In this document: piece after piece, positions 2,459 to 52,430 of the stretch
Position numbering within the stretch: position 1 is the stretch's first letter
Layout: each line of letters begins with the position of its first letter
The notes under the pieces: model-generated
The model's database searches: none
What the model saw: the letters and a program-made list of their open reading frames with translations, nothing else
Told to the model about the DNA's origin: nothing
Position numbers and translations under genes: made by a program
From: a virus
IMG/VR virus record: IMGVR_UViG_3300005290_000037
Coordinates: 1-54,300 of that record
Reading direction: 5' to 3' (one strand)
Length of the DNA stretch: 54,300 bases

Positions 2459-2634
2459 TCATTGCGCCGATTCCATTCTGGTATCGAGAGCTGACTAAGC
2501 GTGGCGAATGGAGACTTTCGATCGGCTCTCTTCGGCGCCGAGTGTTCGCGAAGAGGGTCGATCGCTTTCCAGAAGGGACGGTCTATCGTCTCTGGTTGTG
2601 GGTCGTTCAGATTCGACTCATGGTGAAGGCATGA
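2455..2634 (+). CDS. Small basic protein, unknown
   Basis: 59 aa, starting MIIAPIPFWYREL and rich in Arg and Trp. It is linked by ATGA overlaps to terL upstream and to the methyltransferase downstream, and this double coupling is the main reason to call it real. The hydrophobic stretch near VYRLWLWVVQIRLMV may be membrane-active or amphipathic. No function is recognised. Confidence 0.6.
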   Translation: MIIAPIPFWYRELTKRGEWRLSIGSLRRRVFAKRVDRFPEGTVYRLWLWVVQIRLMVKA

Positions 2635-3182
2635 ACTTGGTCGCCGCTCGCGCGGCTGACGGCTGGATGGCGGACGATGAACTCGTCTGGCTCGCTGAGC
2701 AAGCCGCGTGGGCCGATTCGATTATCGAAGTCGGCTCGTGGAAAGGTCGCTCCACGCTGGCACTGGCTGAGAACACGCCGGGGCATGTCTGGGCGGTGGA
2801 TCATTGGCAGGGCACACCTGGGGATGCCCATCTCGCAGAAGTCGAACGGCTCGGCGGACCGGACGGGTTGTATCAAGCCTTCTGCGAGAATTTGCGACAC
2901 TGCTTTGAGCGTGGCACGGTCAGCATGTTTCGGATGGACTCTGCCGAAGCGGCCAAGAACTTCCAGCGGGGCTCGGTCGATCTTGTGTTCATCGATGCAA
3001 GCCATGTCTACGCGGACGTGAAGCGCGACATCGAAACGTACCGTCCGCTGGTGAAACCGGGCGGGATCTTGTGTGGGCACGACTACGCCTGTCCGTCCCA
3101 TCGTGGCGTGCAGGATGCGGTAGATGAATTGTTTCCGAAGGTGAACCGCGCGGGGTTGTCGATCTGGTGGGTGCGGCTGTGA
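2631..3182 (+). CDS. SAM-dependent methyltransferase (Methyltransf_24 type)
   Basis: 183 aa starting MNLVAARA. The ATG shares ATGA with the preceding small gene, so I prefer it to an earlier in-frame start at 2508. The Rossmann motif I is IIEVGSWKGRSTLAL, followed by an acidic VDHWQG strand, then DLVFIDASH and a late PGGILCGHDY strand, as in class I enzymes of the small-molecule/sugar O-methyltransferase group. It opens a block with three glycosyltransferase-like genes and so probably methylates a sugar on a virion glycan. The substrate is inferred. Confidence 0.8.
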   Translation: MNLVAARAADGWMADDELVWLAEQAAWADSIIEVGSWKGRSTLALAENTPGHVWAVDHWQGTPGDAHLAEVERLGGPDGLYQAFCENLRHCFERGTVSMFRMDSAEAAKNFQRGSVDLVFIDASHVYADVKRDIETYRPLVKPGGILCGHDYACPSHRGVQDAVDELFPKVNRAGLSIWWVRL

Positions 3183-3313
3183 CTGAATACATGCGCGAAC
3201 GTCTTGTCAGAAGTCTGCCAAGTGATCGCTCTTGTCTCTCCTGGCTCAGGACGTTTGCCTGCGCCTTGTCTGGTGCGATCATCGGCACACTATTGGGAAT
3301 AATGACGAAATGA
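3179..3313 (+). CDS. Membrane mini-protein
   Basis: 44 aa with a GTG start that overlaps the preceding stop (GTGA), and a stop that overlaps the next start (ATGA). The C-terminal half (FACALSGAIIGTLLGIM) forms one predicted membrane helix. Function is unknown. Coupling on both sides argues that it is translated and sets the start of the next gene. Confidence 0.5.
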   Translation: MTEYMRERLVRSLPSDRSCLSWLRTFACALSGAIIGTLLGIMTK

Positions 3314-4080
3314 CGCGCATCGTCTTCTCGAAAGATCGCGCCCTACAACTGCACGCGTTTCTGCGGTCCTATCAGGATCACGTCTCGCCACACGCGCGGA
3401 TGACGGTGCTGTATAAAGCCAGCACGCTGCGACATCAAGCCGCGTATACGGACATGTTTCGCGCGTTTCCGTGGGTGCAACCGTTCCGCCAGTCGGCCAA
3501 CTTCAAGAAAGACTTGCTCGAATTGTTGCCGGCCTATGGCTGGGCGATCCTCTTTGCCGATGATCATTTGTTCGTGCGGCCGTGGGTGGAAGAAGAGCGG
3601 CTGATCAATCTGCATCTCGGGTTGAATCTGACGTGGTGTTACACGCTCAACGTGCCGCAACCGTTGCCGAGGCATGAGTTGATCGAGCCAGACAAGGTGT
3701 CGTGGTCATGGTGGCGTGGAGACGGCGATTGGGCATATCCACTCTGTCCGTGCGGGCACGTCTTTAATCTAGAGGAATGGCGCCCGATGATCGCCGCAGC
3801 AGAGTTCACGTCGCCGAATACTTTAGAGATGGCGCTGCAAGTCCATCGCTCAGCGTTTCTCTCGCGTCGTGGCCTCTGCTACCGCGCATCGAAACTGGTG
3901 CTCTTACCGTGGAACCGCGTGCAGGATGAATGCCCGAACCGCATCGCGGCAAACCTGCCGCATCCCGATCAACTCGTCGCGCAGTGGGAAGCGGGCTATC
4001 AGATCAACGTCTCGGCACTCTACGGCGTGCAGAATGAAAGTTTGCATCAGGAATTGCCGTTGGTCTTGGAGGCGCGGTGA
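3310..4080 (+). CDS. Glycosyltransferase-like protein
   Basis: 256 aa starting MTRIVFSKDRALQL. The ATG shares ATGA with the upstream mini-gene. An earlier in-frame start at 3232 would overlap that gene almost entirely and is rejected. The short N-terminal strand, the FADDHLF acidic motif near residue 88 and the later Trp-rich WSWWRGDGDW segment suggest a GT-A-like nucleotide-sugar enzyme. Its place between a methyltransferase and two more transferases supports a glycan role. The family is not firmly identified, and donor and acceptor are unknown. Confidence 0.6.
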   Translation: MTRIVFSKDRALQLHAFLRSYQDHVSPHARMTVLYKASTLRHQAAYTDMFRAFPWVQPFRQSANFKKDLLELLPAYGWAILFADDHLFVRPWVEEERLINLHLGLNLTWCYTLNVPQPLPRHELIEPDKVSWSWWRGDGDWAYPLCPCGHVFNLEEWRPMIAAAEFTSPNTLEMALQVHRSAFLSRRGLCYRASKLVLLPWNRVQDECPNRIAANLPHPDQLVAQWEAGYQINVSALYGVQNESLHQELPLVLEAR

Positions 4081-4691
4081 ACGTCACGATGCGGAGCGCA
4101 ATAATTTATTGCCCGCATTTGAATCGGGACATTCGCGGCTTGCTGAATGCGATTCCCTTTCCCCGGATTTGGACGGGCGCGCAAACCGCACGCGGGGAAG
4201 ACGGCTGCCTGCAGTGCCATCAGGCGATTGTGCTCTATGCGCTGGCGCACCACTGGCCGCAAGTCTTTGTGATGGAAGATGACTGCGCGTTGACTGAGCA
4301 GTTCTACTATCGGCGCTGGGTGGAAGATGCCGCATGGGCTGAGGCGCACGGGTATGACGTGTTGGTCGGTGGCTCCACTCGGACATACGGCGAGAAGGTC
4401 GTCAGGGACGGCCTGATCGAAGTCTCATCGTTCTGCAGCGCGCATTGCGTCGTCTATTTGCAGTCCAGTTACGAGACGATTCTGAAAACCGTGCAGCCAC
4501 ACGATCAGTCTATCGGGCGACTCGGCGCGAAATGTCTGTTGACGTGGCCGTTTGTCGCGGTGCAGCGCGCGGTCTTCTCTGGCATTCTGCGGCAGGAAGT
4601 GGATTACACGCCACTGTATGAGGCGCATGAGAAACGGCTCGGCCATGCCCTCGGTCTCCTTCAACCGCAGATGCCCATGCCGGTGTACTGA
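4077..4691 (+). CDS. Glycosyltransferase family 25-like
   Basis: 204 aa, GTG start in a GTGA overlap (an ATG lies four codons in). The early RGEDGCLQCHQAIVLYAL segment followed by VFVMEDDCAL is the pattern of LPS-type GT25 enzymes: a conserved Gly-Cys helix and then the ExDD motif that binds metal and nucleotide sugar. It is shorter than many GT25 proteins. It shares TGATG with the next transferase. It probably adds a sugar to a glycan that decorates the virion or the host surface, but the sequence does not say which. Confidence 0.7.
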   Translation: MNVTMRSAIIYCPHLNRDIRGLLNAIPFPRIWTGAQTARGEDGCLQCHQAIVLYALAHHWPQVFVMEDDCALTEQFYYRRWVEDAAWAEAHGYDVLVGGSTRTYGEKVVRDGLIEVSSFCSAHCVVYLQSSYETILKTVQPHDQSIGRLGAKCLLTWPFVAVQRAVFSGILRQEVDYTPLYEAHEKRLGHALGLLQPQMPMPVY

Positions 4692-5278
4692 TGATTAGCT
4701 TTGTGCTGCCCACGCTCGGCCGTCCCGGTCTTCTGACCGCGCTGGATTCGATCGAACTCTGGCCCGGTGACGAAGTGTTGGTCATCGGCGAAATGGCACA
4801 CCTGAACCCCTATATTCGATCCTTGGATGTGCAGCGCGGGGTCCGGTTCCTGCATTGTCCGCGCGGCAATGATTGGGGCCACAGCGAACGAAACTTCGCG
4901 CAGGCGCACGCGAAAGGGCGCTATCTCGCCAACCTGGACGATGATGACGTGTTCGTCCCCGGCGCGCGAGACCTAATGGCCGATGCGATGGAGACCACAC
5001 CGGACCGGCCGGTGATCTTCCGCATGTCGTATCCCAATGGCATGACGCTGTGGTACCGCTCGCACTATTTCGGCGATGACATCACTGGCGGGAATGTTGG
5101 GACGCCGATGATGTTTTTTCCGAATGACCGCGCGAAGTTAGGCCACTGGGGGCACGACTACACGGGCGACTTCCAGTTCCTCAAAAGCTGCAGATGGCGG
5201 CCAGAGGACTACGTCTGGCGGCCTGAAATCATCGCGTTAATCGGCCGGGATCAACACGCGGAGGCGGCCAGTGCGTGA
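4691..5278 (+). CDS. Glycosyltransferase family 2-like
   Basis: 195 aa. The opening MISFVLPTLGRPGLLTALDSI and the DDDD motif in ANLDDDDVFVPGA are classic GT2 (GT-A fold) signatures for nucleotide-sugar and divalent-metal binding. A late acidic segment (GHDYTGDFQF) may contribute to the active site. It is the last of three transferases in a tightly coupled run and overlaps the next gene by 8 bp. Donor and acceptor sugars are unknown. Confidence 0.8.
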   Translation: MISFVLPTLGRPGLLTALDSIELWPGDEVLVIGEMAHLNPYIRSLDVQRGVRFLHCPRGNDWGHSERNFAQAHAKGRYLANLDDDDVFVPGARDLMADAMETTPDRPVIFRMSYPNGMTLWYRSHYFGDDITGGNVGTPMMFFPNDRAKLGHWGHDYTGDFQFLKSCRWRPEDYVWRPEIIALIGRDQHAEAASA

Positions 5279-5518: not shown

Positions 5519-7510
5519 ATGCTCCAGAAGGCGTATTCGCTCGTCACCGTCAAGGGGTTTGACCCCCAGAAGCGGACGTTTTCGGGCATCGCCACCTCCC
5601 CAGTTGCGGATCGCGTCGGCGACACCATCGACTCGAAGGGCATCAAATACAAAAACCCGCTGCCGCTCCTGCTGTATCACGACAGCAAAAAGCCGGTCGG
5701 TGAGGCGAAGTTCTCCCGATTCACGGGTGACGGCACGCCGTTCGATGCGCGCATTTCGTCGATTGACCGGCCCGGCATTGTGAAGGACCGGCTCGATGAA
5801 GCGATCGACTCCCTGAGCGCCGATCCGCCGCTGATTCGTGGTGTGAGTATCGGGTTCATGCCGCTGGAGTCGCCGGTCTACAACAAAGACACTGGCGGGT
5901 TCCACTACCCCAGTATCGAAGTGCACGAACTGAGCATGGTCGTTGTCCCGGCCCACCAGGACGCGACGATTACCACGCTCAAAGCGCTTGACGTGGACCA
6001 GCCCGCGCTCGGGCCAGACGTCACCGCTCCCAAACCTGCCGGCGTTTCGGCCTCATCGCGCACCGGAGTACGGTTGCGCACGGAACGCCCCATGGCCAAG
6101 AAAAGTTACGCCGACATGATTGCCGAGTGTATTGCGACGCGAAAGGAGCATACCGACCGTATCGACGCGCTTTTGCTAAAGCAAAACGACACCGGCCTGA
6201 CGATGGATCCGCAAGATGCGGAGGATCACGACGAACTCGCGGGAAAGGTGGAAGCGATCGATGCCCAGCTTGTGCGCTTGCGCGCGGCTGAAGCGCGCGA
6301 GAAGGCCGAAGCAGCTCAGGTGCGTCCGAGTGGTGGGTTGGAAGTTCGTCACGGTGCGCAGGTCAGCGTCACCGATCCAGTCAAGCAACTCGGGAAGGGC
6401 ATCATGTTCGCCCGCTACGCGATGTGCATGGGCATGTCCCGCGGCAATCCCTACGAAGCCAAACAGCTCGCGGTCGACAACTACGGTGATGGCACCGCGC
6501 CCATTCTGGCCAAGATGATCGACTGGCAAACCAAAGGCGCGGTCGGTGCGGCGAACACGCAGACCGCAGGGTGGGCCTCGGAGCTCGTCCCCTACACCCT
6601 GATGGACGACTTCATCGAATTTCTCCGACCGGGCACGCTGGTCGGCAAGTTCGGCACCACGCAGAATGGCGTGCAAATTCCGTCCTTGCGTCGGGTGCCG
6701 TTCAACACCAGGGTGTCTGGGTTCTCTGCCGGCCTGACGGCCAACTGGGTGGGAGAAGGGCTCCCGATTCTGCTCAGTAAGGCGACCAGCTTCACGACTT
6801 CGCTCTCGTGGGCGAAGGTGGCGGCGCTCACGGTGCTGACCAAGGAAGAAATTCGATTCAGCAATCCGAGCGCCGAAGCCAAAGTCCGCGACGAGATCGC
6901 GCGCTGCATGATCGCGAAGCTCGACAAGGACTTCATCGATCCGGCGAAGAGTGCATCGGCGAACGTCTCGCCGGCGTCCATCACCAACCAGACGGTCCCG
7001 ATCCTCACGACGGGCACCACGGCCGCCACGCTGCGGACGGATCTCGCGACCCTGATCGCCACGTTTGCGACGGCGAATCTCTCGCCTGAGGACATCGTGT
7101 TGATCATGAACACGGTCGACGCGCTGAACATCTCGCTGATGATCACGTCACTCGGCAATCCGGTCTTCCCGGGCCTGACGATGCAGGGCGGGAACCTCTT
7201 GGGCTTCCCGGTGATCACGACCACGCAGATGACCTCGATTGGATCGCCCGTCAGCAACATCATCGTCGCGGTCAAGGCCAGCGAAGTGTATCTGGCCGAT
7301 GACGGAGTTGTGACCGTGGATGCGAGCGATCAGGCCAGCGTCGAAATGGTGGACAGCTCGTCACAGACCGGCATCGTCGGCACCGGTGCTTCGCTGGTGT
7401 CGTTCTGGCAGGACGGCCTCGTCGGCCTGAAGGCGACCCGCGAGATTACCTGGAAGATTCGGCGCACTGGCGCGGCGCGCTACATCTACAACTCGGCGTA
7501 CAAGGCCTAA
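5519..7510 (+). CDS. Prohead protease-major capsid protein fusion (HK97 fold)
   Basis: 663 aa. Residues 1-160 are an HK97-type prohead protease, with the catalytic His in LLLYHDSKKPVG and Ser in LIRGVSIGFMP. Residues 190-280 are a charged helical segment suited to a scaffold/delta domain. Residues 290-663 are the HK97-fold capsid, with N-arm, the WASELVPYTLMDDFIEFLRPGTL segment, E-loop, and P- and A-domain strands. Many phages encode these as separate genes. Here one frame covers both, so the polyprotein must self-cleave or the capsid must also start internally. ATG 6089 (MAKKSYADM), preceded by GGA, is a weak candidate for that. Confidence 0.93.
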   Translation: MLQKAYSLVTVKGFDPQKRTFSGIATSPVADRVGDTIDSKGIKYKNPLPLLLYHDSKKPVGEAKFSRFTGDGTPFDARISSIDRPGIVKDRLDEAIDSLSADPPLIRGVSIGFMPLESPVYNKDTGGFHYPSIEVHELSMVVVPAHQDATITTLKALDVDQPALGPDVTAPKPAGVSASSRTGVRLRTERPMAKKSYADMIAECIATRKEHTDRIDALLLKQNDTGLTMDPQDAEDHDELAGKVEAIDAQLVRLRAAEAREKAEAAQVRPSGGLEVRHGAQVSVTDPVKQLGKGIMFARYAMCMGMSRGNPYEAKQLAVDNYGDGTAPILAKMIDWQTKGAVGAANTQTAGWASELVPYTLMDDFIEFLRPGTLVGKFGTTQNGVQIPSLRRVPFNTRVSGFSAGLTANWVGEGLPILLSKATSFTTSLSWAKVAALTVLTKEEIRFSNPSAEAKVRDEIARCMIAKLDKDFIDPAKSASANVSPASITNQTVPILTTGTTAATLRTDLATLIATFATANLSPEDIVLIMNTVDALNISLMITSLGNPVFPGLTMQGGNLLGFPVITTTQMTSIGSPVSNIIVAVKASEVYLADDGVVTVDASDQASVEMVDSSSQTGIVGTGASLVSFWQDGLVGLKATREITWKIRRTGAARYIYNSAYKA

Positions 7511-7808: not shown

Positions 7809-8024
7809 GTGGCCCTCGACAATTTCACCATTCATCGCTATCGCGCCCTGCAGGAATGTCCGCAAGGGCAGCAGCCCGGACAAGTCTTTGAAGCCACGGA
7901 AGACGCAGGCAATATTCTGATTTCCGTGGGCGTGGTCGAACGGGTGCCCGACGATACCCCACTCGGCTTTCCGCGTGAGCGCGGCTCCTACAAACGGCGC
8001 GATCTGGTCGCTGAGAAGCGATGA
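7809..8024 (+). CDS. Small head-region protein, unknown
   Basis: 71 aa, GTG start, overlapping the portal gene by ATGA. Compact alpha/beta sequence (MALDNFTIHRYRALQ ... VGVVERVPDDTPLGF) with a basic C-terminus. Its place between capsid and portal suggests a head-assembly or decoration role. No family is recognised. Confidence 0.6.
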   Translation: MALDNFTIHRYRALQECPQGQQPGQVFEATEDAGNILISVGVVERVPDDTPLGFPRERGSYKRRDLVAEKR

Positions 8025-9397
8025 AGATCCAGATCGGGCGGTTCACGCTCGACACGAAAGGCTCGGCATCGGCAGCGCTCGGTGACGGCATTACGCACAT
8101 TCCGGCCTCAACCGCCGGCTGGTGGCCGGTGATCCGTGAGAGTTTCGCGGGCGCGTGGCAGCGTGGTGTGACGGTCCCGGTGGAAGATGCCCTCGCCCAT
8201 CCGACCTATTGGGCCTGCGTCACGCTGATTGCTGGGTCCATCGCGAAAGTCCGTCCGATGCTGGTCGAAGAACAAGGCGGCATCGAAACAGAAGTCGAGC
8301 GGCAATCACCCTACTCGCCAGTCCTTGAACGGCCCAATCACTACCAGAACCGCATCCAATTCTTCACCTACTGGATGCTCTCGAAGTTGATGCGCGGCAA
8401 TGCGTATGCGTTGAAGGCGCGCGACAGCCGTGGCATCGTCACCGATTTGTATCTACTTGATCCGTTGCGCGTGCGTCCACTGGTCGCGCCGAGTGGAGCG
8501 GTGTACTACGCCTGTCAGCAGGACATTCTGAACGACATTACCGAGGCGTCGATTGTGATTCCGGCGCGCGAAATCATTCACGACATTGGTTTCGCGCCGT
8601 ATCACCCACTGTGTGGCTTTTCGCCGGTCTATGCCTGCGGCTATCCCGCGATTCAAGCCCTGACGATCAACCGCAACGCCTCGAAGTTGTTTAGCAACGG
8701 CTTCCAATTAGGCGGGATTCTGAGCGCGCCTGGTCAAATCAGCGCGGATACCGCCAACCGTCTCGAAAAGTACTGGATGGAGAACTACAGCGGCGCGGAT
8801 AACGCCGGCAAGATTGCGGTCGTCGGCGATGGGATGAAATTCGATCAGCCCACGATGATGTCCGCCGTGGATGCGCAAGTCATCGATCAGTTGAAATGGA
8901 ACGACGAGAAGATTTGTGCGGTGCACCTGATCCCCGGCTACATGGTCGGGGTCGGCCCGTTACCGTCCTATAACAACGTCGACGCCCTCTGGAACCAGTA
9001 CTACGGGTTGTGTCTGCAGTACTACTTCGAATCGCTCGAGCTCTGTCTCACGGAAGGTCTGGAGCTCAAGGACGTCGGCTATGAGGTGGAGTTCGACATC
9101 GCCGAACTCGATCGCATGGATTCCGTACAGCGGATGGAAGTGGCGACCAAGGGCGTCATCGGTGGGGTGTTCAAACCGAATGAGGCGCGCGCCAGATTTA
9201 ATCTCCCGAAAGTCGATGGCGGCGATGCGGTCTACCTCCAGAAGCAGAACTGGCCACTCGAGAAATTGGGCAGCGACAACGTGAAGCCAGGCCAGACGGC
9301 ACCAGCCCCCCAGCAGCCTGCCGTCATGCCTGAGCCTGCGAAGTCGATCGATCAGGACGAACTGCTGTCACTCGTCATGAAACGGTTAGCCGCATGA
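8021..9397 (+). CDS. Portal protein (HK97 family)
   Basis: 458 aa, typical for an HK97-type portal. Such a protein forms the dodecameric ring through which DNA enters and leaves the head. Supporting signatures are AHPTYWACVTLIAGSIAKV near residue 65, a helical stem region around 230-290 (NRNASKLFSNGFQLGGIL), and the late segment with IPGYMVGVGPLPSYNNVDALWNQYY followed by the conserved MDSVQRMEVATKGVIGGVFKPNEAR. A Pro/Ala/Gln-rich linker (about 425-440) precedes the C-terminal helix. It overlaps the next gene by ATGA. Confidence 0.93.
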   Translation: MKIQIGRFTLDTKGSASAALGDGITHIPASTAGWWPVIRESFAGAWQRGVTVPVEDALAHPTYWACVTLIAGSIAKVRPMLVEEQGGIETEVERQSPYSPVLERPNHYQNRIQFFTYWMLSKLMRGNAYALKARDSRGIVTDLYLLDPLRVRPLVAPSGAVYYACQQDILNDITEASIVIPAREIIHDIGFAPYHPLCGFSPVYACGYPAIQALTINRNASKLFSNGFQLGGILSAPGQISADTANRLEKYWMENYSGADNAGKIAVVGDGMKFDQPTMMSAVDAQVIDQLKWNDEKICAVHLIPGYMVGVGPLPSYNNVDALWNQYYGLCLQYYFESLELCLTEGLELKDVGYEVEFDIAELDRMDSVQRMEVATKGVIGGVFKPNEARARFNLPKVDGGDAVYLQKQNWPLEKLGSDNVKPGQTAPAPQQPAVMPEPAKSIDQDELLSLVMKRLAA

Positions 9398-10449
9398 CCG
9401 ACACCGAAAAGATCGCCGATGTTGTCGTCGCGGCGGTGCGAGTCTCGACGAAGGTCATGGCAGATGACATGGCGGCGATGCAGGCCCGCATGGCCACGAT
9501 GGAAGCCATGCACTCGGCGATGGTGGCGCAGATGGCCACAATGAGTGATCGCATGGAGTCTTGCGAAGCAGACATGACGGCCTGTAAGGGCCGGATGGCC
9601 CAGATGCAAGACGAGATGGCGGCGATGCAAGGCGTGGGCAAGAGCCTTGCGGTGCTGGATGGACGGGTGCAGGAACTGTCAACGCGCAGTGCGATCCCTG
9701 GGCCGCCTGGCGAGCGTGGACCTACGGGTGATGCCGGCCCTCAAGGCGAACACGGACAGTCCGTGGACATTGGTGACGTGCGACAGATGGTTCAGGACGC
9801 GGTAGCGGACGTGCCACTACCGAAAGACGGGCAAGACGGCACCAGCGTGACCGCCGCAGACGTCGCGCCATTGATAGCTGCAGAAGTTGAGAAAGCCGTC
9901 TCGGCCTTGCCTGCACCGAAGGACGGCATCGGCCTGCTCAGCGCCCTGATAGATCGTGAAGGTGAGCTAGTAGTTACGCTCTCCGATGGCACCACGAAAC
10001 AATTAGGGCCAGTCGTCGGCCGAGACGTCGACATGCGCGAGGTCGAGCGGTTGATTACTGAAAAGGTGGCGCTTATTCCCGTCAAGGAAGGCGCACCAGG
10101 GAAGAACGGCATGGACGGCACCCTAGAAGGTGCCAGCATCAAACAGATCGACGAACGCACCTTCAGGTTCCTGCGTGCGGATGGCTCAGTGCTGGGCGAG
10201 ATGAAATCGTCGGCAATGGTCTACCGCGGCGTCTTCAGGTCTGGAGATGTCTACGAAAAAGGCGACGCCGTGACGCGCAACGGCTCGTTGTGGATCGCTC
10301 GCGATGATACCCAGGCGACTCCCGGCGATGGCGTGACCTCGTGGCAACTGGCGGCGAAGGCTGGCCGTGATGGGAAAGGGCTCCCAGGCGAACGCGGCCC
10401 ACAGGGCGCTAAAGGCGAGAAGGGCGATCCGGGGAGGAACTTCTCATGA
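9394..10449 (+). CDS. Collagen-like coiled-coil virion fibre protein
   Basis: 351 aa. Residues 1-90 are a Met-rich heptad coiled coil with repeated MAAMQARMATM-type units. Gly-X-Y triplets follow (IPGPPGERGPTGDAGPQGEHG), with a second set at the C-terminus (GLPGERGPQGAKGEKGDPG). Between them, residues near 280-330 (YRGVFRSGDVYEKGDAVTRNGSLW) resemble the carbohydrate-binding modules often found in phage fibres. It should trimerise as a thin fibre, probably on the head since it follows the portal. The block of glycan genes begins immediately after it, making it a candidate glycosylation target (inference). Confidence 0.75.
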   Translation: MTDTEKIADVVVAAVRVSTKVMADDMAAMQARMATMEAMHSAMVAQMATMSDRMESCEADMTACKGRMAQMQDEMAAMQGVGKSLAVLDGRVQELSTRSAIPGPPGERGPTGDAGPQGEHGQSVDIGDVRQMVQDAVADVPLPKDGQDGTSVTAADVAPLIAAEVEKAVSALPAPKDGIGLLSALIDREGELVVTLSDGTTKQLGPVVGRDVDMREVERLITEKVALIPVKEGAPGKNGMDGTLEGASIKQIDERTFRFLRADGSVLGEMKSSAMVYRGVFRSGDVYEKGDAVTRNGSLWIARDDTQATPGDGVTSWQLAAKAGRDGKGLPGERGPQGAKGEKGDPGRNFS

Positions 10450-11192
10450 GCCTCACCGGTCTGGCCATGTGGGAGCGGTGGCAAGACACCGTGCGCGCGG
10501 CGCTGCCGTTGTATGCGCAAAGTCCGTTCTACGTGAATCAGACGACTGTGACGGAGGACGAAGTCGATCGCGCGGTGACGGCATTGGATGCGCGTTGGGA
10601 CGTCTCGGGCATGACGCGGGATGTTGTGCACGGCGCGCGTGTGTTTGAGACCAGCCGCGGTCCCGTGACGCGTCAGTGGGTCGATGGGAATGTGGAAATC
10701 GGCTTTTTGTTTCAAGCGTTGCCCTATATGGCTGCGCACGACGTGCTGGACATCGGCGCTGGCTATGGGCGATTAGCGGTGATGTTGTCGCCATTGGTGC
10801 GGTCATATACCTGCGTCGATCCAGTCTCGGTGTCCGTGGACGTCTGCCGCGACTACACCGCACGGTATGCGCCGTCGGTGCGCGTGCTGAGTGTCGATGA
10901 ATTCCTGGCCGATCTTCCGACGCTGCGTCCCACGCTGGCGATCAATATCCACAGTTGGAACGAATGCGATCGGGCACAAATTACCGGCTGGCTGGACGTC
11001 CTTGATGTCTTAGCGGTGCCCTACCTGTTCACGGTGACGCACGACGCAGACCCGCAGGTGTTTACTGCGTGGGAAACGGACCAACCGAATTTCAGGCCAC
11101 TGATCGAAGCCCGCTACGACGTCATCGCTGAAGCAGCGCTAGGGTTTGGCGCATTGCCCCATGTGCTCTGGCGCCGAAAGGGGAACGCATGA
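10446..11192 (+). CDS. SAM-dependent methyltransferase
   Basis: 248 aa. Motif I is VLDIGAGYGRLAV, followed by the acidic TCVDPVSVSVDV strand, so this is a class I SAM-binding fold. The N-terminal 90 residues are helical and the C-terminus is alpha/beta. Similar proteins in glycan loci are called putative sugar O-methyltransferases. It opens the second glycan block and is coupled by ATGA on both sides. The substrate is inferred from the four sugar-enzyme genes that follow. Confidence 0.75.
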   Translation: MSLTGLAMWERWQDTVRAALPLYAQSPFYVNQTTVTEDEVDRAVTALDARWDVSGMTRDVVHGARVFETSRGPVTRQWVDGNVEIGFLFQALPYMAAHDVLDIGAGYGRLAVMLSPLVRSYTCVDPVSVSVDVCRDYTARYAPSVRVLSVDEFLADLPTLRPTLAINIHSWNECDRAQITGWLDVLDVLAVPYLFTVTHDADPQVFTAWETDQPNFRPLIEARYDVIAEAALGFGALPHVLWRRKGNA

Positions 11193-11809
11193 TCCCCGAC
11201 GTGCCGCCGCGCTGGCCTGGCGAGACGTTCGTGTGTATCGGCGGCGGGCCGAGTCTGACGACAGCCGATGTCGACGCGGTCCATGGTTGGGCGCGCGTCA
11301 TTGCGATCAACGATGCGTATCTCTTGGCGCCGTGGGCCGATGTGCTCTACGCCTGCGATGCGAAATGGTGGACTTGGCATCACGGCGTGCCGAGTTTCGG
11401 CGGGCCGAAGTATTCGATCGAGTCGTCTGATCCGGTGACATTCACCGAGGTGCAGGTGTTGAAGAACACCGGCATCACGGGCCTTGAGCTCGATCCGACC
11501 GGACTGCGGACGGGGATCAACAGCGGCTATCAGGCGATCAATCTGGCGGTGCATCTGGGCGCAGAGCGCATCCTGTTGCTCGGCTACGACATGAGCTGTG
11601 ATGGGACGCGCTCGCATTGGTTCGGCGAGCATCCGGACGCGCAGCCGTCACCGTATCCACAAATGCGCGAAGCCTTTGAATCGCTGGTAGAAGCGCTGCA
11701 GGCCATCGGCGTGACGGTGATCAACTGTTCTCGACGGACGGCCTTGACGACATTTCCCTGCGTCCCGCTCGAGCAGGAACTCGCGCGCCTGCGGGAGCGT
11801 GCGGCGTGA
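11189..11809 (+). CDS. DUF115/MptE-like protein (Maf-related sugar enzyme)
   Basis: 206 aa. The N-terminal FVCIGGGPSLTTADVDAV loop, then VIAINDAYLLAPWADVLYACD, and later GINSGYQAINLAVHLGAERILLLGYDM match the DUF115/MptE-like fold. That fold is shared by 6-hydroxymethylpterin pyrophosphokinase-like enzymes and Maf-type motility-associated glycosyltransferases. In phage glycan blocks the Maf-like role, transfer of a nine-carbon acidic sugar, is the more plausible one, but the sequence alone does not decide. Confidence 0.65.
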   Translation: MIPDVPPRWPGETFVCIGGGPSLTTADVDAVHGWARVIAINDAYLLAPWADVLYACDAKWWTWHHGVPSFGGPKYSIESSDPVTFTEVQVLKNTGITGLELDPTGLRTGINSGYQAINLAVHLGAERILLLGYDMSCDGTRSHWFGEHPDAQPSPYPQMREAFESLVEALQAIGVTVINCSRRTALTTFPCVPLEQELARLRERAA

Positions 11810-12540
11810 TCAAAGTCTTTGCCTGCTTCTACAACGAAGCGGCGTTGATCCCGTTCTTTCTGAGTCACTACCACTACGTGGATGCGATCCACGCGTTTGT
11901 CAGTCCGTCCACGGACGCCACACGGGAACTGCTCGCCGCCGATCCGCGCGTGTGTATTGACGATCGCGAGATGCCGGATGGCATCGATGACGATATGAAA
12001 GTGCTGTGGCTGAATGAGGCGATCGCTCGGCCGGACCACGAACACGCCTGGCATTTTGTCGTGGATGCCGACGAGTTCATCTGGCCGCCGCACGATCCCA
12101 CTGGAGAAACGGCGCGCTCGTATCTCTACACCGTTCCGAAATCTGAAGTCGCCCTCTACGCCATGATGCAGTTCGTCTATCGGTCCGAGACGGACACTGA
12201 TCTGGATGTGAACTCTACGCCCGTGGCCTTGCAACGTCGGCATGGGGTGCCGTTCGGGCGAAAGCCGCTGATTACGCGGGCGAATTGTGGCTTGCAGTAC
12301 GTGCCTGGGAATCACAACTTTACCGATCGCCATCCCTGCGCAAAGACGCACGAATTCCACGGTGCCCACTGGCAGAACGCCGATCCGTCCTTTGCCGTCA
12401 CGCGACGCGTGCGCGATAGAGCTGAACGTATTAGCGGCGTGAATCGGATCATGCATCACGGGACCCACCACTGGGGTGCGACGACCGCCACGGTTGAGGC
12501 GGAACTTGCGAGCCATCGCCATGATCCCGTTGTCCTCTAA
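11806..12540 (+). CDS. Glycosyltransferase (GT2/GT92-like)
   Basis: 244 aa, GTG start in a GTGA overlap. The opening VFACFYNEAALIPFFLSHY is the usual first strand and helix of the Glyco_tranf_2_4/GT92-like group. FVVDADEFIWPP supplies the DxD metal-binding motif. His-rich segments (KTHEFHGAHW, MHHGTHHWG) follow. It is the third gene of the second glycan block. Donor and acceptor are unknown. Confidence 0.75.
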   Translation: MIKVFACFYNEAALIPFFLSHYHYVDAIHAFVSPSTDATRELLAADPRVCIDDREMPDGIDDDMKVLWLNEAIARPDHEHAWHFVVDADEFIWPPHDPTGETARSYLYTVPKSEVALYAMMQFVYRSETDTDLDVNSTPVALQRRHGVPFGRKPLITRANCGLQYVPGNHNFTDRHPCAKTHEFHGAHWQNADPSFAVTRRVRDRAERISGVNRIMHHGTHHWGATTATVEAELASHRHDPVVL

Positions 12541-13438
12541 GCCGCGCGTCTTCGGCGTCGATTATCAGTTCCTGTCGTGTGGCAACGTGTTCACGCGCGG
12601 GCTTGTCCATGCGGCGGCGGATCTCGGCCTCGACTATCAGCATGGGCTGTGGGACGAACCGCACCTGACCGCTCGGATTCAGCAATTCGCGCCGGACCTG
12701 GTGTTCGTGGTGCACGGGCGCCGGTTCTCTGGCCTCTGGCGGCAGATCGCACGCTCGGCGGTGTGGCTCCTTGACGAACCGTACGAAGTGGATGATACGG
12801 CGACCTGGGCGGGGAAGTTCGACCACGTCTTTCTCAATGATCCGGCCACGCTGCATCGCCATCAGAACGCCACGTACCTGCCGGTCTGTTACGACCCGCA
12901 TCTGTATACGAACAACGGTGGCCCGCGCCCACATGCGGTGGGGTTTATCGGGGGAGGGAACGGCACGCGTGATCGCTACCTTGCCGGGTTAGCGCGTGCC
13001 GGACTCCTCACCTACGTGGTGGGGGGCGCGTGGAGCGATCCTGACGTCAATCGGCGGTGTCTCGCTGGCAACATCCAGCCGACGCAGACGGCCGCGCTGT
13101 ATCAGCAGACCCAGATCATCCTGAACGTCTTCCGCGAAGTGCATCACTTCAACCGGGAGCAGATCCCGGCGACGTCGCTGAATCCGCGGGTCTATGAAGC
13201 GCTGGCCTGCGGGGCGCTTGTGGTGAGTGAGTGGCGGCCTGAAGTCGATCAGATCGTGCCGGAGCTCCCGACGTTCACGACCGAAGCCGAGTGCATCGAT
13301 CTGATTGCGTACCTGCTCGCGCATCCAGTCGATGCGGAAGACATTCGGCAGCGGTGCGCCGAGCGGCTGAAGGACCACACCTACGCGAATCGGTTACAGA
13401 CCGTGCTGGCCACGGTGGGATCGGCGGTGGCCGCATGA
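12521..13438 (+). CDS. GT-B glycosyltransferase, CgeB-like
   Basis: 305 aa from ATG 12521 (MIPLSSKPRVFGVD). An earlier in-frame start at 12476 adds a basic stretch lying within the previous gene and is less likely. The second half has YFGGxGN-like VGFIGGGNGTRDRY, then LNVFREVHHFN and LNPRVYEALACGALVVSEWRPEVDQI. This is the C-terminal nucleotide-sugar half of GT-B enzymes in the Glyco_trans_1_2 (CgeB) group. It overlaps the next gene by ATGA. Confidence 0.8.
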   Translation: MIPLSSKPRVFGVDYQFLSCGNVFTRGLVHAAADLGLDYQHGLWDEPHLTARIQQFAPDLVFVVHGRRFSGLWRQIARSAVWLLDEPYEVDDTATWAGKFDHVFLNDPATLHRHQNATYLPVCYDPHLYTNNGGPRPHAVGFIGGGNGTRDRYLAGLARAGLLTYVVGGAWSDPDVNRRCLAGNIQPTQTAALYQQTQIILNVFREVHHFNREQIPATSLNPRVYEALACGALVVSEWRPEVDQIVPELPTFTTEAECIDLIAYLLAHPVDAEDIRQRCAERLKDHTYANRLQTVLATVGSAVAA

Positions 13439-14055
13439 CGCCGCGCGTCTCGATCGTGACGACGGTGTACGACCGGCTGGCCTGTTTGCAGCGGTGCCTG
13501 CGCTCCACACAGAAGCTGCACTATCGCGACTTTGAACAAATCGTGGTGTCGGATGCCCCGCGCGAGACGATGGTCACCGAGATCGCGGCGACCTGTGCGC
13601 AGTTTGGCGCCCAATATATCAACCTGCCGGCCCGTACCAACGATTGGGGCATTTCCCCGGCGATGGCGGGCCTCCGCGCCAGCCGTGGTGAGTTCGTCTG
13701 CTTCCTGAGTGATGACAACGCCTATCTGCCGGAGCACTTCGGACCACTGATCGCCGCGTTCGACGCCGATCCTGCGCTCGGATTCGTGTATTCCAGCTGT
13801 CTCTATGCCGGCCGGAAAGAACTGCGCTATTGCCCACCGGTCGGCGCGGGGATTGATCTTGGCCAGCCGCTGTTTCGGCGCGCGGTGCTCAACGAACTCT
13901 TTCCCGATGAATTGCCCTGTAAAGGCGTCTTTTCGTGGGACTGGGAATTAATCTGGCGGCTGATGGCGGCCAACGTAAAGTGGCAGCACGTTGACCAAAC
14001 TACGTTTGTCTTTCGGCTGGAAGCCTATCCCCAGTTGATGGCGGCGCTCGCATGA
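13435..14055 (+). CDS. Glycosyltransferase family 2
   Basis: 206 aa from ATG 13435, which shares ATGA with the CgeB-like gene. The longer frame from 13291 is rejected because it only reads the previous gene out of frame. Motifs: VSIVTTVYDRLACLQRCLRS (first GT2 strand), FVCFLSDDNAYLPEHF (acidic metal site) and FSWDWELIWRLMAANV late in the protein, like the GT2 ED/W region. It is the last enzyme of the second glycan block and is coupled to a 26-aa membrane peptide. Confidence 0.85.
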   Translation: MTPRVSIVTTVYDRLACLQRCLRSTQKLHYRDFEQIVVSDAPRETMVTEIAATCAQFGAQYINLPARTNDWGISPAMAGLRASRGEFVCFLSDDNAYLPEHFGPLIAAFDADPALGFVYSSCLYAGRKELRYCPPVGAGIDLGQPLFRRAVLNELFPDELPCKGVFSWDWELIWRLMAANVKWQHVDQTTFVFRLEAYPQLMAALA

Positions 14056-14132
14056 GACTGCTCATGGAGGTCATCATCTCGGCGCTCATTCTGTGGCAGG
14101 CGTATCTGTGGATGACGATGGTGATCGCATGA
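14052..14132 (+). CDS. 26-residue membrane peptide
   Basis: 26 codons (MRLLMEVIISALILWQAYLW...) forming one membrane-spanning helix. ATGA overlaps tie it to the glycosyltransferase upstream and the connector gene downstream. If translated it is among the shortest genes here. The double coupling and the absence of any gap argue for it, but its size makes chance possible. Confidence 0.45.
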   Translation: MRLLMEVIISALILWQAYLWMTMVIA

Positions 14133-14821
14133 GCGAACTCCAGATCACCGATTCGCTCATCAGCACGCTGCCGACGCCGGCGATCACGGTGGCGTATGCG
14201 AAAGACCACATTCGCGCGCTTGGGAATACCGACGACAACCTGATCGCGGTCTGGATCAACGCCGCGGCCTCCTATTTCGAGGAACAAACCGGCCGGCAAC
14301 TCATCACCGCCACGCGCGAAGCCTGGCTGGATGCTTTCCCGTGGGTCGGTGGCGCGGGCGCCATCAGCCGGATTGAACTGCCGCATCCGCCCCTGCAGTC
14401 CGTGGTCAGTGTCCAGTATCTGGACGCGGACGGGACGCTGCAATCGTTTACGGGCGGGTCGCCGGCGACCGCGTTATTTACAACCTCAGCACCGGCTGGT
14501 CCCTACGCGCGTCGGGGCTGGGTCGAACCGCTCTTCGGCCAGACGTGGCCGACGCCCTACGCGCAAACCGGTGCCATTCGGATTCGCTACACCTGCGGGT
14601 ACGGCGATACGCCCGATGACATTCCCGAACTGGTGCGAGGCATTCTCTGCTTTCTCGTCGGGCACTTCGATACCAACCGCTCAGCGGTACAGAACTCACA
14701 ACGGGGCGAGTCGGTGATGGCGTTGCCGTATGGCGTGCAGGAAATGATGAATGGCTTCAAGTATTCGGCGCTGCCATCGCAAGTGCTGCGCACGGTCTCC
14801 ACGGTGACGACATGGCCGTAA
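14129..14821 (+). CDS. Head-tail connector (HK97 gp6-like adaptor)
   Basis: 230 aa from ATG 14129. The helical N-terminus (TVAYAKDHIRALGNTDDNLIAVWINAAASYFEEQTGRQLI) is the signature of the phage gp6-like connector, which forms a ring under the portal. It is followed by a beta-rich insertion and the IRIRYTCGYGDTPDDIPELVRGILCFLVGHF helix that closes the fold. It is the first gene after the glycan block and returns to standard head-tail order. Confidence 0.88.
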   Translation: MSELQITDSLISTLPTPAITVAYAKDHIRALGNTDDNLIAVWINAAASYFEEQTGRQLITATREAWLDAFPWVGGAGAISRIELPHPPLQSVVSVQYLDADGTLQSFTGGSPATALFTTSAPAGPYARRGWVEPLFGQTWPTPYAQTGAIRIRYTCGYGDTPDDIPELVRGILCFLVGHFDTNRSAVQNSQRGESVMALPYGVQEMMNGFKYSALPSQVLRTVSTVTTWP

Positions 14822-47178: not shown

Positions 47179-50100
47179 GTGGCCTACGATCCGCACGCCA
47201 ACCTCGCGATTACCACTGTCGCTGTCGCGCCCTCGCCAGCGTTGTCTGGGACGTCGCTAACGCTCACGGCGGATGCAGGCGGCGCGCTCTTTCCGGCACC
47301 AGGTGCGCAAGGCTACAACGTCACGGTGTGGGCGACGGGCACGCAGCCTATTCCCACGAACGCTGAGATCGTCCGCGTGACCGGCAAAGTCGGGAATGTC
47401 CTCACCATTGTTCGGACCCAGGAAGGCACCTCCGCGCGCGCGATCGTCGTCGGGGATCTGATTGCCGTCACGATCACCGCCAAAGTCGTCACGGACGTCG
47501 AAGCGGCCATCACGGCCAATACGAATTTCGCCGGCACGAATGGCGCGATCACGGGCGGGTCGATCACGGTCAATACGTCCGGCGTGTCCGTGAATTTGCC
47601 GGCCTACCTCACGACGGCGGCGCTCTCGAATCATTCCCACGGCAATCCGACACTGAACCTCACAAACCTGTCAGGGACGACCGCGAGTAATAGCGCTGGC
47701 TTGACGCTGTCTCTGAGCGCAGCCGCGCAATCGGCCCAGACGGGCATTTCAGGGATTGCTGGCTCGAATACCACGTATTCCTCTGGGACGGTGCAATTCA
47801 CCGGCGTCGGCGGTGGCGTGACAGTCAGTTCCAACACGGGCCAGCGGATTGACATCTCCGTGGCTGCGCCAGTGGCGCAAACCGTCCAGACGCAGAATCT
47901 GATTGCGGCCAGTCTCTCCGGCAATACGGCCGGCGTCCTGGCCTTGGTGTCCTCAGGGACGGCCATTTTCGCCGGTGGGAATAACATCACCCTGAGCCAG
48001 AACGGGCAATCGATCACGATCAGTGGCGCGAACGCGGGTGGCGCGCAAACTGCGATCAGTGGCGTGGTGGTCTCGAACACCACGTATACCTCCGGCACGA
48101 TCAGTTTTTCCAACGCCGGGAACATCACGATCAGCTCGAGTGTGAACGGCGCGACGCAATACGTCGTGCTCAGTGGCCACGCGTCGCAAACGAATCAAAG
48201 CGCGATCAAGGGCTTCGGCGTCAGTAATACCGGACAGACGGCCGGCAACACCGGGATTTCGAGTGGCATTGATTGGGTGTTGGCGGGCTCTGGGTCGATC
48301 ACGCTCTCGCAGAGCACGGCGGGTGGTGGGCCGAATACGGTCTGGATGCAGCATCCTGCATGGATCACGACGGCGACTCAGTCTTCGATGACCGTGTCGG
48401 ATGCGGCGACGTCAGGCACGCTCGCGCGTCTGGCCTTCACGAATCTGAATGGCGTGACGCTGTCGCTGTCCACTGGCGCGGCTGGTTCGCACACGATCGT
48501 CGGGTCACACAACGCGATTACCTCACAGTCGACGCAATTTCTCGCCTTGACACTGGGTGGGAATACGGCTGGGACCACGACGTTCCACGCCACCAACAAC
48601 GCCAGCTTGTTCTTCAACGGCGGGAACAACGTCACGTTGAGCGGGAACGGTTCCACGGTCACGATCTCCGCAGCGAATCAAACGGTTCAGACCCAGAACC
48701 TCATCGCGGCGAGTCTGTCTGGTAACACCGCTGGGGTGCTCGCGCTTGTGTCGTCAGGCACGATGATTTTTGCGGGCGGCAACAACATTACGCTCTCGCA
48801 GAACGGCCAGTCAGTCACGATTTCCGGGGCGAATGCAGGGGGGGCCCAGACAGCCATCTCCGGGATCGTGGTGTCAGACACGACCTATACGTCTGGGACG
48901 GTGTCTTTCAGCAACCAGGCAAACGTCACGATCGGATCATCGGCCAACGGGGCGACGCAGTACATCAGATTGTCGGTCGCGCCCGTTACGAACTCCAGTC
49001 TGACGATGCAGGCGGGGGCCTCCACGCTCTCGTCGGTGTCGCGGGTGGCGTTCGTGGACTCGAATGGCGTGTCCTTTGGGGCGTCCACGTCGAACAACGG
49101 CAGCATTTCCATCACGGCGACGGTCAAGACGGACTATCTCACCACGCAATCGACCCAATTCCTGGCGCTCACCCTTGGTGGCAATACCGCCGGCACGACG
49201 ACGTTTCATGCGACGAACAATGCCAGCCTGTTTTTCAATGGTGGCAACAACATCACGCTGTCCGGCAACGGGTCGACGGTTACGATTTCGGCTGCAAATC
49301 AGACGAACCAAAGCGCGATCAAAGCCTTTGGTGTGAGCAATACCGGGCAAACGGCCGGAAATACAGGTGTCTCAACGGGCATTGATTGGGTACTCGCGGG
49401 GTCGCAGTCGATTACCCTGTCGCAAAGCACGGCGGTCGGTGGGCCGAATACGGTCTGGATGCAGCATCCGGCGTGGCTGACCACTGCGATGGCCTCCAAC
49501 CGAGGCTCCGACTTCGTGGCAGCCACGGCAGCCTTTGCGGGCACGAATGCGTCCGGCACGATCGCTTCGGATGGCATTTCGGTCTCGGTCGCGGCACCTG
49601 GGGCGGCGGCGGAGAACAACTGGATCAATCTGCTCGGGGCGAATACGGCGGGGAATACCAGCGCGTCGGGGTCCACGATCGGTTGGAGTGGCGGCAACGG
49701 CGTGACGTTGTCGGGCACGAACAATTCTCAGGTCGTCATCTCCGTAAACACCTACAGCACGGTCGGCACGGCGACGACGGCGTACTCAGTGGCTTCGGCG
49801 AACTCGGTCGGCACCGTCACGCGGTGGGCGGCTGAAGATCATGCCCATGCGGGTGTTGGGGCGATCGGCATTTCAACATCTGGCAATACCGCTGGCACCA
49901 CCGGTAGCGTCTTGGGCACCTATTGGTTCCAGGGCGGCAATAACATCACGGTGAGCCAGATCACGTCCAACAACGGCAGTCACACGCTGGTCCTGTCTGG
50001 TGCGGCGGGTGGCGGATCGCCGCAGTCGTACTACCTGAATATCGACAATTACGCCGGCATGGTGACCGGAGCGAGCGCGATCACGCAGACCAGTGGATCT

Positions 50101-50829
50101 TCCATCTTTGTGCAGCCGTTCATTATCAGAAACGACATGAGCGCGAGTTATCTGCGTCTGCTCGCGTCGTTTAATGATTCCGCGGTGGGGACGGCTGGCA
50201 CGCCGGTGGTCAATTCCACGTTTTCCGTTGAACGCTACACAACGATCGGCGTCGTGCTCTACAGCCAGGGCACTGGGGCAAGCAGCCGGTCGCTGCAATA
50301 TGTGACGTCGAGTTCGGCCGGGCTCACGGGGCAAACCGTCTGTGGCGCCGGTGCGCAGTCCTCACGCTATACGGTCACGGTCGCCAAGACCTACCCCGCG
50401 ACCGGCGCGACGAACAATAATTACACCAGCAGTTACGCGGTATCGTCGGCCTCGATCGTCGTGAGTAGTAACAGCAATACGCTGTTCACGGGGCCACGGT
50501 TTCTGGATATTCCGTGGGCGCGATCCTTCAGTGCCGGCAATTATTGGTTTGGGATTGGCGCGTCCACGAGTTCGACGAGTAACAGCGGCAATATTAGTTT
50601 TGCTGGGACCGCCGCCATGCCAGTCTCGATTCATGGCATCTCGCAGATTGCCTTGTCGATGGGCCTCTTGGGTGCGGTGACGTCGGCCTCCGATCATCAG
50701 ATGCAACTCGCGCAAGGCGTGTGGACGACGAATTCTTCGATTTGGTCAACCAGTTCGATCGCGATCAGCCAGGTGAGCCAAGTGGTCTCGAATCCTCAAC
50801 TTCCGTTCCAACTGATTCGGCAGGCCTGA
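47179..50829 (+). CDS. Long repetitive tail fibre
   Basis: 1216 aa, the longest gene here. Low-complexity Ser/Thr/Gly/Asn beta-repeat structure over about residues 130-950, with three longer modules each occurring twice: A (47881-48114 and 48682-48915), B (about 48188-48365 and 49309-49478) and C (about 48526-48682 and 49147-49304). An N-terminal attachment domain (about 1-110) and a C-terminal knob (950-1216) bracket them. The stalk probably forms a trimeric beta fibre. Modules A and C are repeated in protein but recoded in DNA. Confidence 0.85.
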   Translation: MAYDPHANLAITTVAVAPSPALSGTSLTLTADAGGALFPAPGAQGYNVTVWATGTQPIPTNAEIVRVTGKVGNVLTIVRTQEGTSARAIVVGDLIAVTITAKVVTDVEAAITANTNFAGTNGAITGGSITVNTSGVSVNLPAYLTTAALSNHSHGNPTLNLTNLSGTTASNSAGLTLSLSAAAQSAQTGISGIAGSNTTYSSGTVQFTGVGGGVTVSSNTGQRIDISVAAPVAQTVQTQNLIAASLSGNTAGVLALVSSGTAIFAGGNNITLSQNGQSITISGANAGGAQTAISGVVVSNTTYTSGTISFSNAGNITISSSVNGATQYVVLSGHASQTNQSAIKGFGVSNTGQTAGNTGISSGIDWVLAGSGSITLSQSTAGGGPNTVWMQHPAWITTATQSSMTVSDAATSGTLARLAFTNLNGVTLSLSTGAAGSHTIVGSHNAITSQSTQFLALTLGGNTAGTTTFHATNNASLFFNGGNNVTLSGNGSTVTISAANQTVQTQNLIAASLSGNTAGVLALVSSGTMIFAGGNNITLSQNGQSVTISGANAGGAQTAISGIVVSDTTYTSGTVSFSNQANVTIGSSANGATQYIRLSVAPVTNSSLTMQAGASTLSSVSRVAFVDSNGVSFGASTSNNGSISITATVKTDYLTTQSTQFLALTLGGNTAGTTTFHATNNASLFFNGGNNITLSGNGSTVTISAANQTNQSAIKAFGVSNTGQTAGNTGVSTGIDWVLAGSQSITLSQSTAVGGPNTVWMQHPAWLTTAMASNRGSDFVAATAAFAGTNASGTIASDGISVSVAAPGAAAENNWINLLGANTAGNTSASGSTIGWSGGNGVTLSGTNNSQVVISVNTYSTVGTATTAYSVASANSVGTVTRWAAEDHAHAGVGAIGISTSGNTAGTTGSVLGTYWFQGGNNITVSQITSNNGSHTLVLSGAAGGGSPQSYYLNIDNYAGMVTGASAITQTSGSSIFVQPFIIRNDMSASYLRLLASFNDSAVGTAGTPVVNSTFSVERYTTIGVVLYSQGTGASSRSLQYVTSSSAGLTGQTVCGAGAQSSRYTVTVAKTYPATGATNNNYTSSYAVSSASIVVSSNSNTLFTGPRFLDIPWARSFSAGNYWFGIGASTSSTSNSGNISFAGTAAMPVSIHGISQIALSMGLLGAVTSASDHQMQLAQGVWTTNSSIWSTSSIAISQVSQVVSNPQLPFQLIRQA
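47881..48114 (+). repeat. Fibre module A, copy 1
   Basis: 78 codons sharing 73 identical residues with copy 2 at 48682-48915. In the first 27 codons all residues are identical, yet 20 of the 27 codons differ at synonymous positions. Confidence 0.9.
48682..48915 (+). repeat. Fibre module A, copy 2
   Basis: Second copy of the 78-residue module (five substitutions against copy 1), heavily recoded. Confidence 0.9.
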
Positions 50830-51845: not shown

Positions 51846-52430
51846 ATGGGACGTGCATCGACGGCGAAGAAAGTCAAGGCGCTCGAGACGCCAGCGGCAC
51901 CACTCAAGCTCGATTTCGGGTGTGGCCCGCATAAGCGAGAAGGCTTTAAAGGGGTTGATGCCACGGCTTTCGTGGGCGTCGATTTCGTGGTCGACCTGAC
52001 ACAGACGCCGTGGCCGTGGGCCAACGAGTCTGTTGCAGAAGCGCACGCGTCGCACTTCGTGGAACATTTGACGGCTCTGCAGCGTGCGGCGTTCTGTAAC
52101 GAGCTTTATCGCATTCTCGTCCCTGGTGGGACGTGTCAGATCATCGTGCCGCATTGGGCGAGTTGTCGGGCCTACGGCGATCCGACGCACCAATGGCCGC
52201 CCGTCAGCGAGTTCTGGTTTTACTACCTCTCGAAAGAATGGCGCGGCCAGAACGCCCCCCACACGGATGCGCAGTATCTCGCTGGCGGATTTGCGTGTGA
52301 TTTCGAGGCGACGTGGGGTTATGCGATGCGGCCTGATCTGCAGGTGCGCAATCAGGAATATCAGCAGTTTGCGATCGGGAACTACAAAGAAGCCGTGCAG
52401 GATTTGATTGCCAACCTGAAGAAACGCTGA
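51846..52430 (+). CDS. SAM-dependent methyltransferase (type 11-like)
   Basis: 194 aa from ATG 51846, with an AAAGG ribosome site; longer frames from 51744 fall inside the previous gene. LKLDFGCGPHKREGFKGVDATAFVGVDFVVDL is motif I and II, then VAEAHASHFVEHL and ELYRILVPGGTCQIIVPHW as in Methyltransf_11 enzymes, which methylate small molecules or sugars. Paired with the transferase at 50831 it forms a third glycan unit. Substrate unknown. Confidence 0.75.
   Translation: MGRASTAKKVKALETPAAPLKLDFGCGPHKREGFKGVDATAFVGVDFVVDLTQTPWPWANESVAEAHASHFVEHLTALQRAAFCNELYRILVPGGTCQIIVPHWASCRAYGDPTHQWPPVSEFWFYYLSKEWRGQNAPHTDAQYLAGGFACDFEATWGYAMRPDLQVRNQEYQQFAIGNYKEAVQDLIANLKKR

Follow-up and report, generated by a model that had tools for sequence, protein, structure and literature searches.

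Glycan-enzyme genes of the phage contig

The IMG/VR virus record IMGVR_UViG_3300005290_000037, analysed here over its whole length of 54,300 bases (the window), is a virus contig with an HK97-type late operon comprising terminases, a protease-fused capsid, a portal, a collagen-like protein, connectors and a tape measure. No relative of its bases 1-25000 was found at the DNA level among 50,697 phage records. Three blocks of sugar-enzyme genes, all on the plus strand, are the subject of this work. A preliminary description had counted seven or eight such enzymes; this was too low, since the inventory holds seven glycosyltransferase-type genes (starting at 4077, a weak case, 4691, 11189, 11806, 12521, 13435 and 50831), three methyltransferase genes (2631, 10446 and 51846) and one orphan (3310).

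The central block (10446-14055) follows the genes for the portal (8021..9397) and for a collagen-like protein with a CBM5/12-like C-terminal part (9394..10449), and ends 73 nt before the start of the head-tail connector Ad1 (14129..14821). It had been described as a methyltransferase, a Maf-like enzyme and three glycosyltransferases of different families, and family matches to all five genes bear this out: a methyltransferase (10446..11192; Methyltransf_25 at E 6e-5 and a weak likeness to the sugar O-methyltransferase TIGR04371 at E 1.2e-4, both under the cut-off), a stand-alone Maf/GT42-like glycosyltransferase domain, here called mini-Maf, that anchors the cassette (11189..11809; phrog_4603 and fold), a GT2_4 or GT92-like glycosyltransferase (11806..12540; E 1.3e-11), a CgeB-like GT-B glycosyltransferase (12521..13438; Glyco_trans_1_2, E 3e-21) and a GT2 glycosyltransferase (13435..14055; E 1e-14). 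With the starts 10446, 11189, 11806, 12521 and 13435 chosen from start codons and upstream sequence, four of these genes overlap the preceding stop by 4 nt and one by 20 nt. The coupling by overlaps proposed for all the sugar genes therefore holds for these five, but not throughout, as there are gaps of 127 nt after 2631-3182 and of 1 nt between the fibre gene and 50831.

The first block (2631-5278) stands ahead of the protease-fused major capsid gene (5519..7510; phrog_617) and holds a methyltransferase (2631..3182, chosen start; Methyltransf_24, E 2.6e-21), an orphan open reading frame (ORF; 3310..4080) with neither a family match nor a relative in the viral_contigs scan, a weakly GT25-like glycosyltransferase (4077..4691; E 0.0086, below the cut-off; phrog_2835 glucosyltransferase, E 0.0035) and a GT2 glycosyltransferase (4691..5278; E 5e-9). 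The third lies directly behind a Ser/Thr-rich fibre gene (47179..50829) and consists of a GT-A glycosyltransferase, so classed by its predicted structure (50831..51550), and a methyltransferase (51846..52430). Family and fold matches confirmed the existence of both outer blocks. None of the enzymes has a membrane segment (maximum 19-residue hydropathy 1.62), no flippase or lipid-linked partner was seen, and no donor-sugar synthesis was recognised.

A fibre gene accompanied by glycosyltransferase and methyltransferase genes

Among the relatives of 50831 in viral_contigs, the best 80 of 238 were analysed. A 51846 homologue lay near the 50831 homologue in all 80 contigs, and an ORF with at least 20% serine plus threonine (S+T) lay upstream of the latter in 74 of the 77 contigs with room for one (median 27.1%). 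Such composition was found in 73/76 upstream ORFs, against 11/78 first ORFs past the methyltransferase and a background of 57 in 2076 ORFs of at least 200 aa in the portal and Maf loci described below. The linkage also held in the other direction: a search from 51846 gave 79 loci, 7 of them cut at the contig edge, and in the 72 with room the glycosyltransferase was present in 71 and the Ser/Thr-rich ORF as well in 69. The contigs, of about 5 to 448 kb, are otherwise mostly different (another flanking gene was common to only 191 of 3160 locus pairs), and the glycosyltransferase is kept at 64-76% identity across them. This recurrence points to the fibre as the likely acceptor of the 50831/51846 pair; with 28.2% S+T it is the highest among the proteins listed for this phage. 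In the 50,697 phage records, 50831 homologues were found in only three, all from one spring-water source, and in the one inspected the glycosyltransferase again follows a protein of 25.6% S+T, with an extra methyltransferase between them.

The model of 50831 (predicted local distance difference test score, pLDDT, 88.8) ranked A197 of Sulfolobus turreted icosahedral virus (STIV) first (Z 20.5, root-mean-square deviation (rmsd) 2.2), followed at lower rank by the human collagen glycosyltransferase LH3 (Z 17) and mimivirus R699 (Z 16). A197 is likewise a virus-encoded GT-A enzyme, but it shares only 18% identity with 50831 and comes from an archaeal virus, where it might act on the STIV capsid. 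The acidic motif of 50831 (E103, D105 and N106, invariant in 60 sequences) probably forms the metal site of the GT-A fold. Two candidate features of the fibres were discarded: N-glycosylation sequons (33 against 27 expected, s.d. 4.3, which is unconvincing) and repeat motifs as a general feature, one motif being present in just 28 of 75.

A Maf-like domain in the head operon

Comparison of predicted structures with known enzyme folds, a check already proposed in the preliminary description, gave a GT-A fold for 50831, as above, and a Maf/GT42 fold for 11189. The AlphaFold model of mini-Maf (206 aa, built from 66 sequences, mean pLDDT 97.3) ranked the Maf flagellin glycosyltransferase 5MU5 first in VIA-align (Z 15.8, rmsd 3.6, 185 residues), ahead of Cst-I (Z 12.0), CstII (11.8) and archaeal HPPK (11.1), and the phrog_4603 profile ('alpha-2,3-sialyltransferase') covers residues 17-200 at E 4.8e-47; no sequence match was found in the PDB. 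The most conserved residues are N179 (66/66), D134 (65), N118 (64), H148 (58) and H143 (56). On this model mini-Maf has the Maf/GT42 fold, and the fold by itself shows no function. It differs from 5MU5 in genomic context and in being the central domain only: it aligns with residues 260-517 of the 632-residue chain and lacks the flanking domains by which Maf recognises flagellin.

Mini-Maf matched 74 phage records, with about 30-40% identity among the matches listed, including PAJU2, PMG1, D3, P1, P7 and giant phages of Caulobacter and Brevundimonas. In the records opened, the homologue stands among connector genes (PAJU2, PMG1 and U7), behind tail genes (CcrBL9 and Domovoi) or before the terminase (phiNP); its context in Klebsiella phage Eowyn was uninformative. 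D3, PAJU2 and PMG1 (Detrevirus) carry the homologue, an unknown gene and a methyltransferase among their connector genes, and PAJU2 has the same capsid-portal-collagen-like order as here, but theirs is one unknown plus one methyltransferase, compared with five genes in the present block; to our knowledge these connector-region genes have no known function. In P1 and P7 the homologue belongs to the operon pmgO-pmgP-ppp-pmgQ (hdmB, hdmC, ppp, hdmD), beside baseplate and tail genes: PmgO is 31% identical over 99% of the mini-Maf query (E 1e-15), PmgP is also weakly MptE-like and pmgQ is annotated as a glycosyltransferase. The operon differs from the present block in lying away from the portal and capsid genes and in including a phosphatase, and the phages are of a different type. 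Mini-Maf was found in three of 398 Pseudomonadota genomes, one of them the chosen centre, and the fibre glycosyltransferase in none.

The occurrence of mini-Maf was followed from the portal, in 67 loci that were located by this gene and had 7 kb of sequence beyond it. It was present in 37 of them (29/36 viral contigs and 8/31 genome contigs), and the Maf-negative loci mostly pass directly from the collagen-like gene into connectors and tail. On the portal tree, which has 66 rows because L209, a partial portal match, was left out (as it was from the S+T comparison below), the mini-Maf label needs 14 changes, at least four of them forced by supported branches, compared with a mean of 21.9 after shuffling; mini-Maf is therefore clustered, yet repeatedly gained or lost. 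The viral-contig portals of the pairs L162/L187 and L171/L189 are identical to those of one Acetobacteraceae and one Bosea prophage, so that the viral and genome portal sets are not fully independent. In this region a single gene, mini-Maf, separates two sister prophages of Phyllobacterium: L177, where it lies between Ad1 and the next gene, and L179, whose genome has no copy elsewhere either. The neighbours are 76-86% identical. Since the profiles label no further glycan gene next to mini-Maf in L164, L177, L184 and L188, it may act alone there.

The gene 5' of mini-Maf in 129 loci was collagen-like (55), unlabelled (35), Ad1 (28), portal (4), Hc1 (3) or capsid (2), with two loci at a contig edge; the usual place of mini-Maf in relatives is thus the junction of portal, collagen-like and connector genes. 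In 65 of the 129 the cargo is closed by a structural gene; these gave 311 ORFs, 244 of them non-redundant, of which 145 were scanned. The main families, with the proviso that an ORF can match several and many match none, were GT2 (16), Methyltransf_24 (11), FkbM (11), Methyltransf_23 (10), Glyco_trans_1_2 (7) and GT9 (6), followed by GT8, TOD1, GT-D, hexapeptide, radical-SAM/SPASM and further methyltransferase families; PIG-L and sulfotransferase families also appeared, sulfotransferase and deacetylase genes being occasional. The control, 29 Maf-negative loci with 127 non-redundant of 142 ORFs, matched mainly the families of connectors and tails, besides a single Glyco_trans_1_2 and a few genes of host type (25 of 57 families listed, the other 32 having at most one member each). 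Hence a set of glycosyltransferases and methyltransferases that turns over accompanies mini-Maf, and phages without mini-Maf carry almost none.

Some neighbouring observations concern other phages. L126, L127 and L113 carry a homologue of the GT-B gene (12521..13438) between the tail terminator and the major tail protein, another insertion slot; L126 has no Maf-like gene. The annotation of Rhizobium phage RHph_X2_26 includes no Maf-like gene and places an SGNH hydrolase (L368 5618-6832) between capsid and portal. L371 and L372, only 3.5 kb long, gave no matches to structural profiles.

Two modules and their candidate acceptors

The preliminary description had taken the sugar genes as one island with one target. 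This did not stand: the fibre glycosyltransferase was found in 0/40 records from the portal and Maf searches and mini-Maf in 0/35 triad records, and the positive controls were found; the longer records were chosen, and records may be fragments. On these grounds, the head-operon and fibre-side genes are two unrelated modules. Of the acceptors it suggested, the tail fibre is favoured by the two-way linkage, but the collagen-like protein was rejected as a specific partner because its gene usually comes next after the portal whether the cassette is there or not (34/37 Maf-positive and 22/30 Maf-negative loci). Its Gly-X-Y runs were longer in Maf-positive loci (p 0.00015 in a naive test); on the tree, however, supported branches leave three independent pairs, a number too small for a test, and a run of 49 occurs in L179, which is Maf-negative. 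The distance from the portal to the first ORF of at least 600 aa showed no clear difference (6334 vs 4413 nt, p 0.10, with 19/37 and 27/30 loci usable).

Other genes in the window include a papain-like cysteine peptidase, so recognised by eye (26314-27000; phrog_16701 'peptidase', E 1.3e-32), an ORF between tail genes with an HNH-type motif by eye (16976-17524), a Big_2/pectinesterase-like and a right-handed beta-helix protein, possibly tailspike-like (28993-30582 and 44932-46221), and a DNA methyltransferase (38341-39993) of 540 residues, compared with about 220 matched positions of the phrog_67 profile, whose domain is apparently interrupted by a large insert.

Discussion

We consider it likely that the phage adds sugars and methyl groups to proteins of its own virion, by means of two modules that are independent of each other and produced along with the structural proteins. 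Modification of virion proteins, as first proposed, is the best-supported reading because of the genome position, the two-way linkage of 50831/51846 with the fibre, the lack of membrane segments and the precedent of phage Corndog. The enzymes would be soluble and act in the cytoplasm, ahead of assembly or in the course of it, drawing on nucleotide sugars of the host as donors. In the first module, mini-Maf would prime a glycan on some protein of the head or neck, in the way that Maf acts on flagellin. Extension of this glycan would fall to the GT2, GT92-like and GT-B enzymes and capping to one or more methyltransferases; the block at 2631-5278 probably feeds the same pathway. In the second, 50831 would glycosylate the Ser/Thr-rich fibre encoded just before it, and 51846 would then methylate the fibre glycan. 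We infer these activities, acceptors and steps from gene order, fold and linkage, and likewise the benefit, which may be masking or changed binding.

Virion glycosylation as such is already known in mycobacteriophages, where glycosylated capsid and tail-tube subunits with C-terminal sites are credited to Freeman 2023 in PMC12619734 and PMC12363180. PMC4351075 gives the Corndog order as portal, O-methyltransferase, two glycosyltransferases, N-acetylglucosamine transferase and protease, suggests capsid modification, and reports the O-methyltransferase and the three transferases in infected cells, not in virions. At the level of genes, the present phage resembles Corndog and Che8 in having a methyltransferase and several transferases within the virion operon; it differs in lineage and in that they modify capsid and tail-tube C-termini, while the present phage has a Maf-type enzyme as the anchor of one module and a Ser/Thr-rich fibre as that of the other.

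Several points speak against virion glycosylation here. A glycan has been seen neither on this phage nor, in the literature covered, on any mini-Maf phage. Mini-Maf scores under the Pfam gathering threshold for PF01973 (Maf / MptE-like; 22.4 vs 34.6 bits). The flanking proteins are unchanged upon gain or loss of mini-Maf and thus point to no acceptor for the first module; S+T content differs little with and without it (capsid 15.1 vs 14.0%), with small differences at most for capsid, portal, collagen-like protein, Ad1, Hc1 and Tc and too few rows for tail proteins. In mycobacteriophages the reported sites lie at the C-terminal ends of capsid and tail-tube proteins; by sequence, these ends bear no Ser/Thr-rich tail here. 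The Ser/Thr-rich fibres resemble one another weakly (60/75 by iterated profile), and the sialyltransferase of phage TayeBlu is annotated in PMC12772287 as possibly acting on host polysaccharide.

The enzymes might instead alter the host envelope (lipopolysaccharide, capsule or exopolysaccharide), giving a superinfection block or a change of serotype, effects known from other phages, D3-type seroconversion being an example. We regard this as unlikely. A gtr-type serotype-conversion cassette comprises a membrane-bound transferase and a flippase, whereas the present enzymes have no membrane segments, neither a flippase nor a lipid-linked partner was seen, the genes stand within the late structural operon both here and in relatives, and the fibre pair is bound to a structural gene in 69/72 loci. 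In its favour, the TayeBlu authors suggest contact of the phage sialyltransferase with exopolysaccharide (PMC12772287).

A role of the Maf-like protein as a part of the virion, or in its assembly, seems very improbable. The accessible portions of PMC9024508, on the P1 virion proteome, do not name PmgO, PmgP or PmgN, a table in PMC10695390 gives pmgO, pmgP and pmgQ as non-essential in P1, and the Corndog transferases are absent from virions (PMC4351075, as above); on the other side, homologues are deposited as 'structural protein' in PAJU2 (L105 3992-4561) and Eowyn (L377 4986-5558) and labelled 'morphogenetic' in P1 and P7, on a basis not seen in either case. Still less probable is unselected cargo in a permissive operon site: the contents do turn over between relatives, but what is recognised among the cargo consists almost entirely of glycan enzymes and almost always comes with the Maf-like gene, and the fibre-triad enzyme is conserved across different contigs. 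Glycosylation of modified phage DNA, to which a weak match of 4691 to the PHROG hydroxymethylcytosine (HMC) glucosyltransferase (E 0.0044) and two DNA methyltransferases elsewhere in the genome might point, is the least probable, given the late structural position, best folds that are protein or glycan transferases, and the lack of any enzyme for base hypermodification in the portion of the ORFs that was scanned, ten further proteins included.

Beyond this phage, and more tentatively, at somewhat below even chances, we propose that uncultured phages share two mobile modules for virion glycosylation. One would be a fibre that moves as a unit, with a protein glycosyltransferase and a methyltransferase of its own, among phages that otherwise differ. 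The other would be a mini-Maf system, shared with P1 and D3, in which the stand-alone domain primes a phage-specific glycan that an exchangeable cassette then builds; by analogy it may be the virion counterpart of a flagellin glycosylation island. Phage virion glycosylation has so far been shown in few phages, and searches of the open-licence literature brought up neither a virion glycosylation system of the Maf type nor the fibre triad. The relative of mini-Maf in the laboratory phage P1 makes the idea testable: if it is true, P1 virions would be glycosylated by PmgO, PmgP and PmgQ under suitable conditions, and the long-unexplained 'morphogenetic' genes of P1, P7, D3 and PAJU2 would acquire a function. 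Virion glycosylation would then be common among environmental siphophages and passed around as modules, which would bear on the encounters of phages with receptors, predators and antibodies in nature and on the reading of virion mass spectra.

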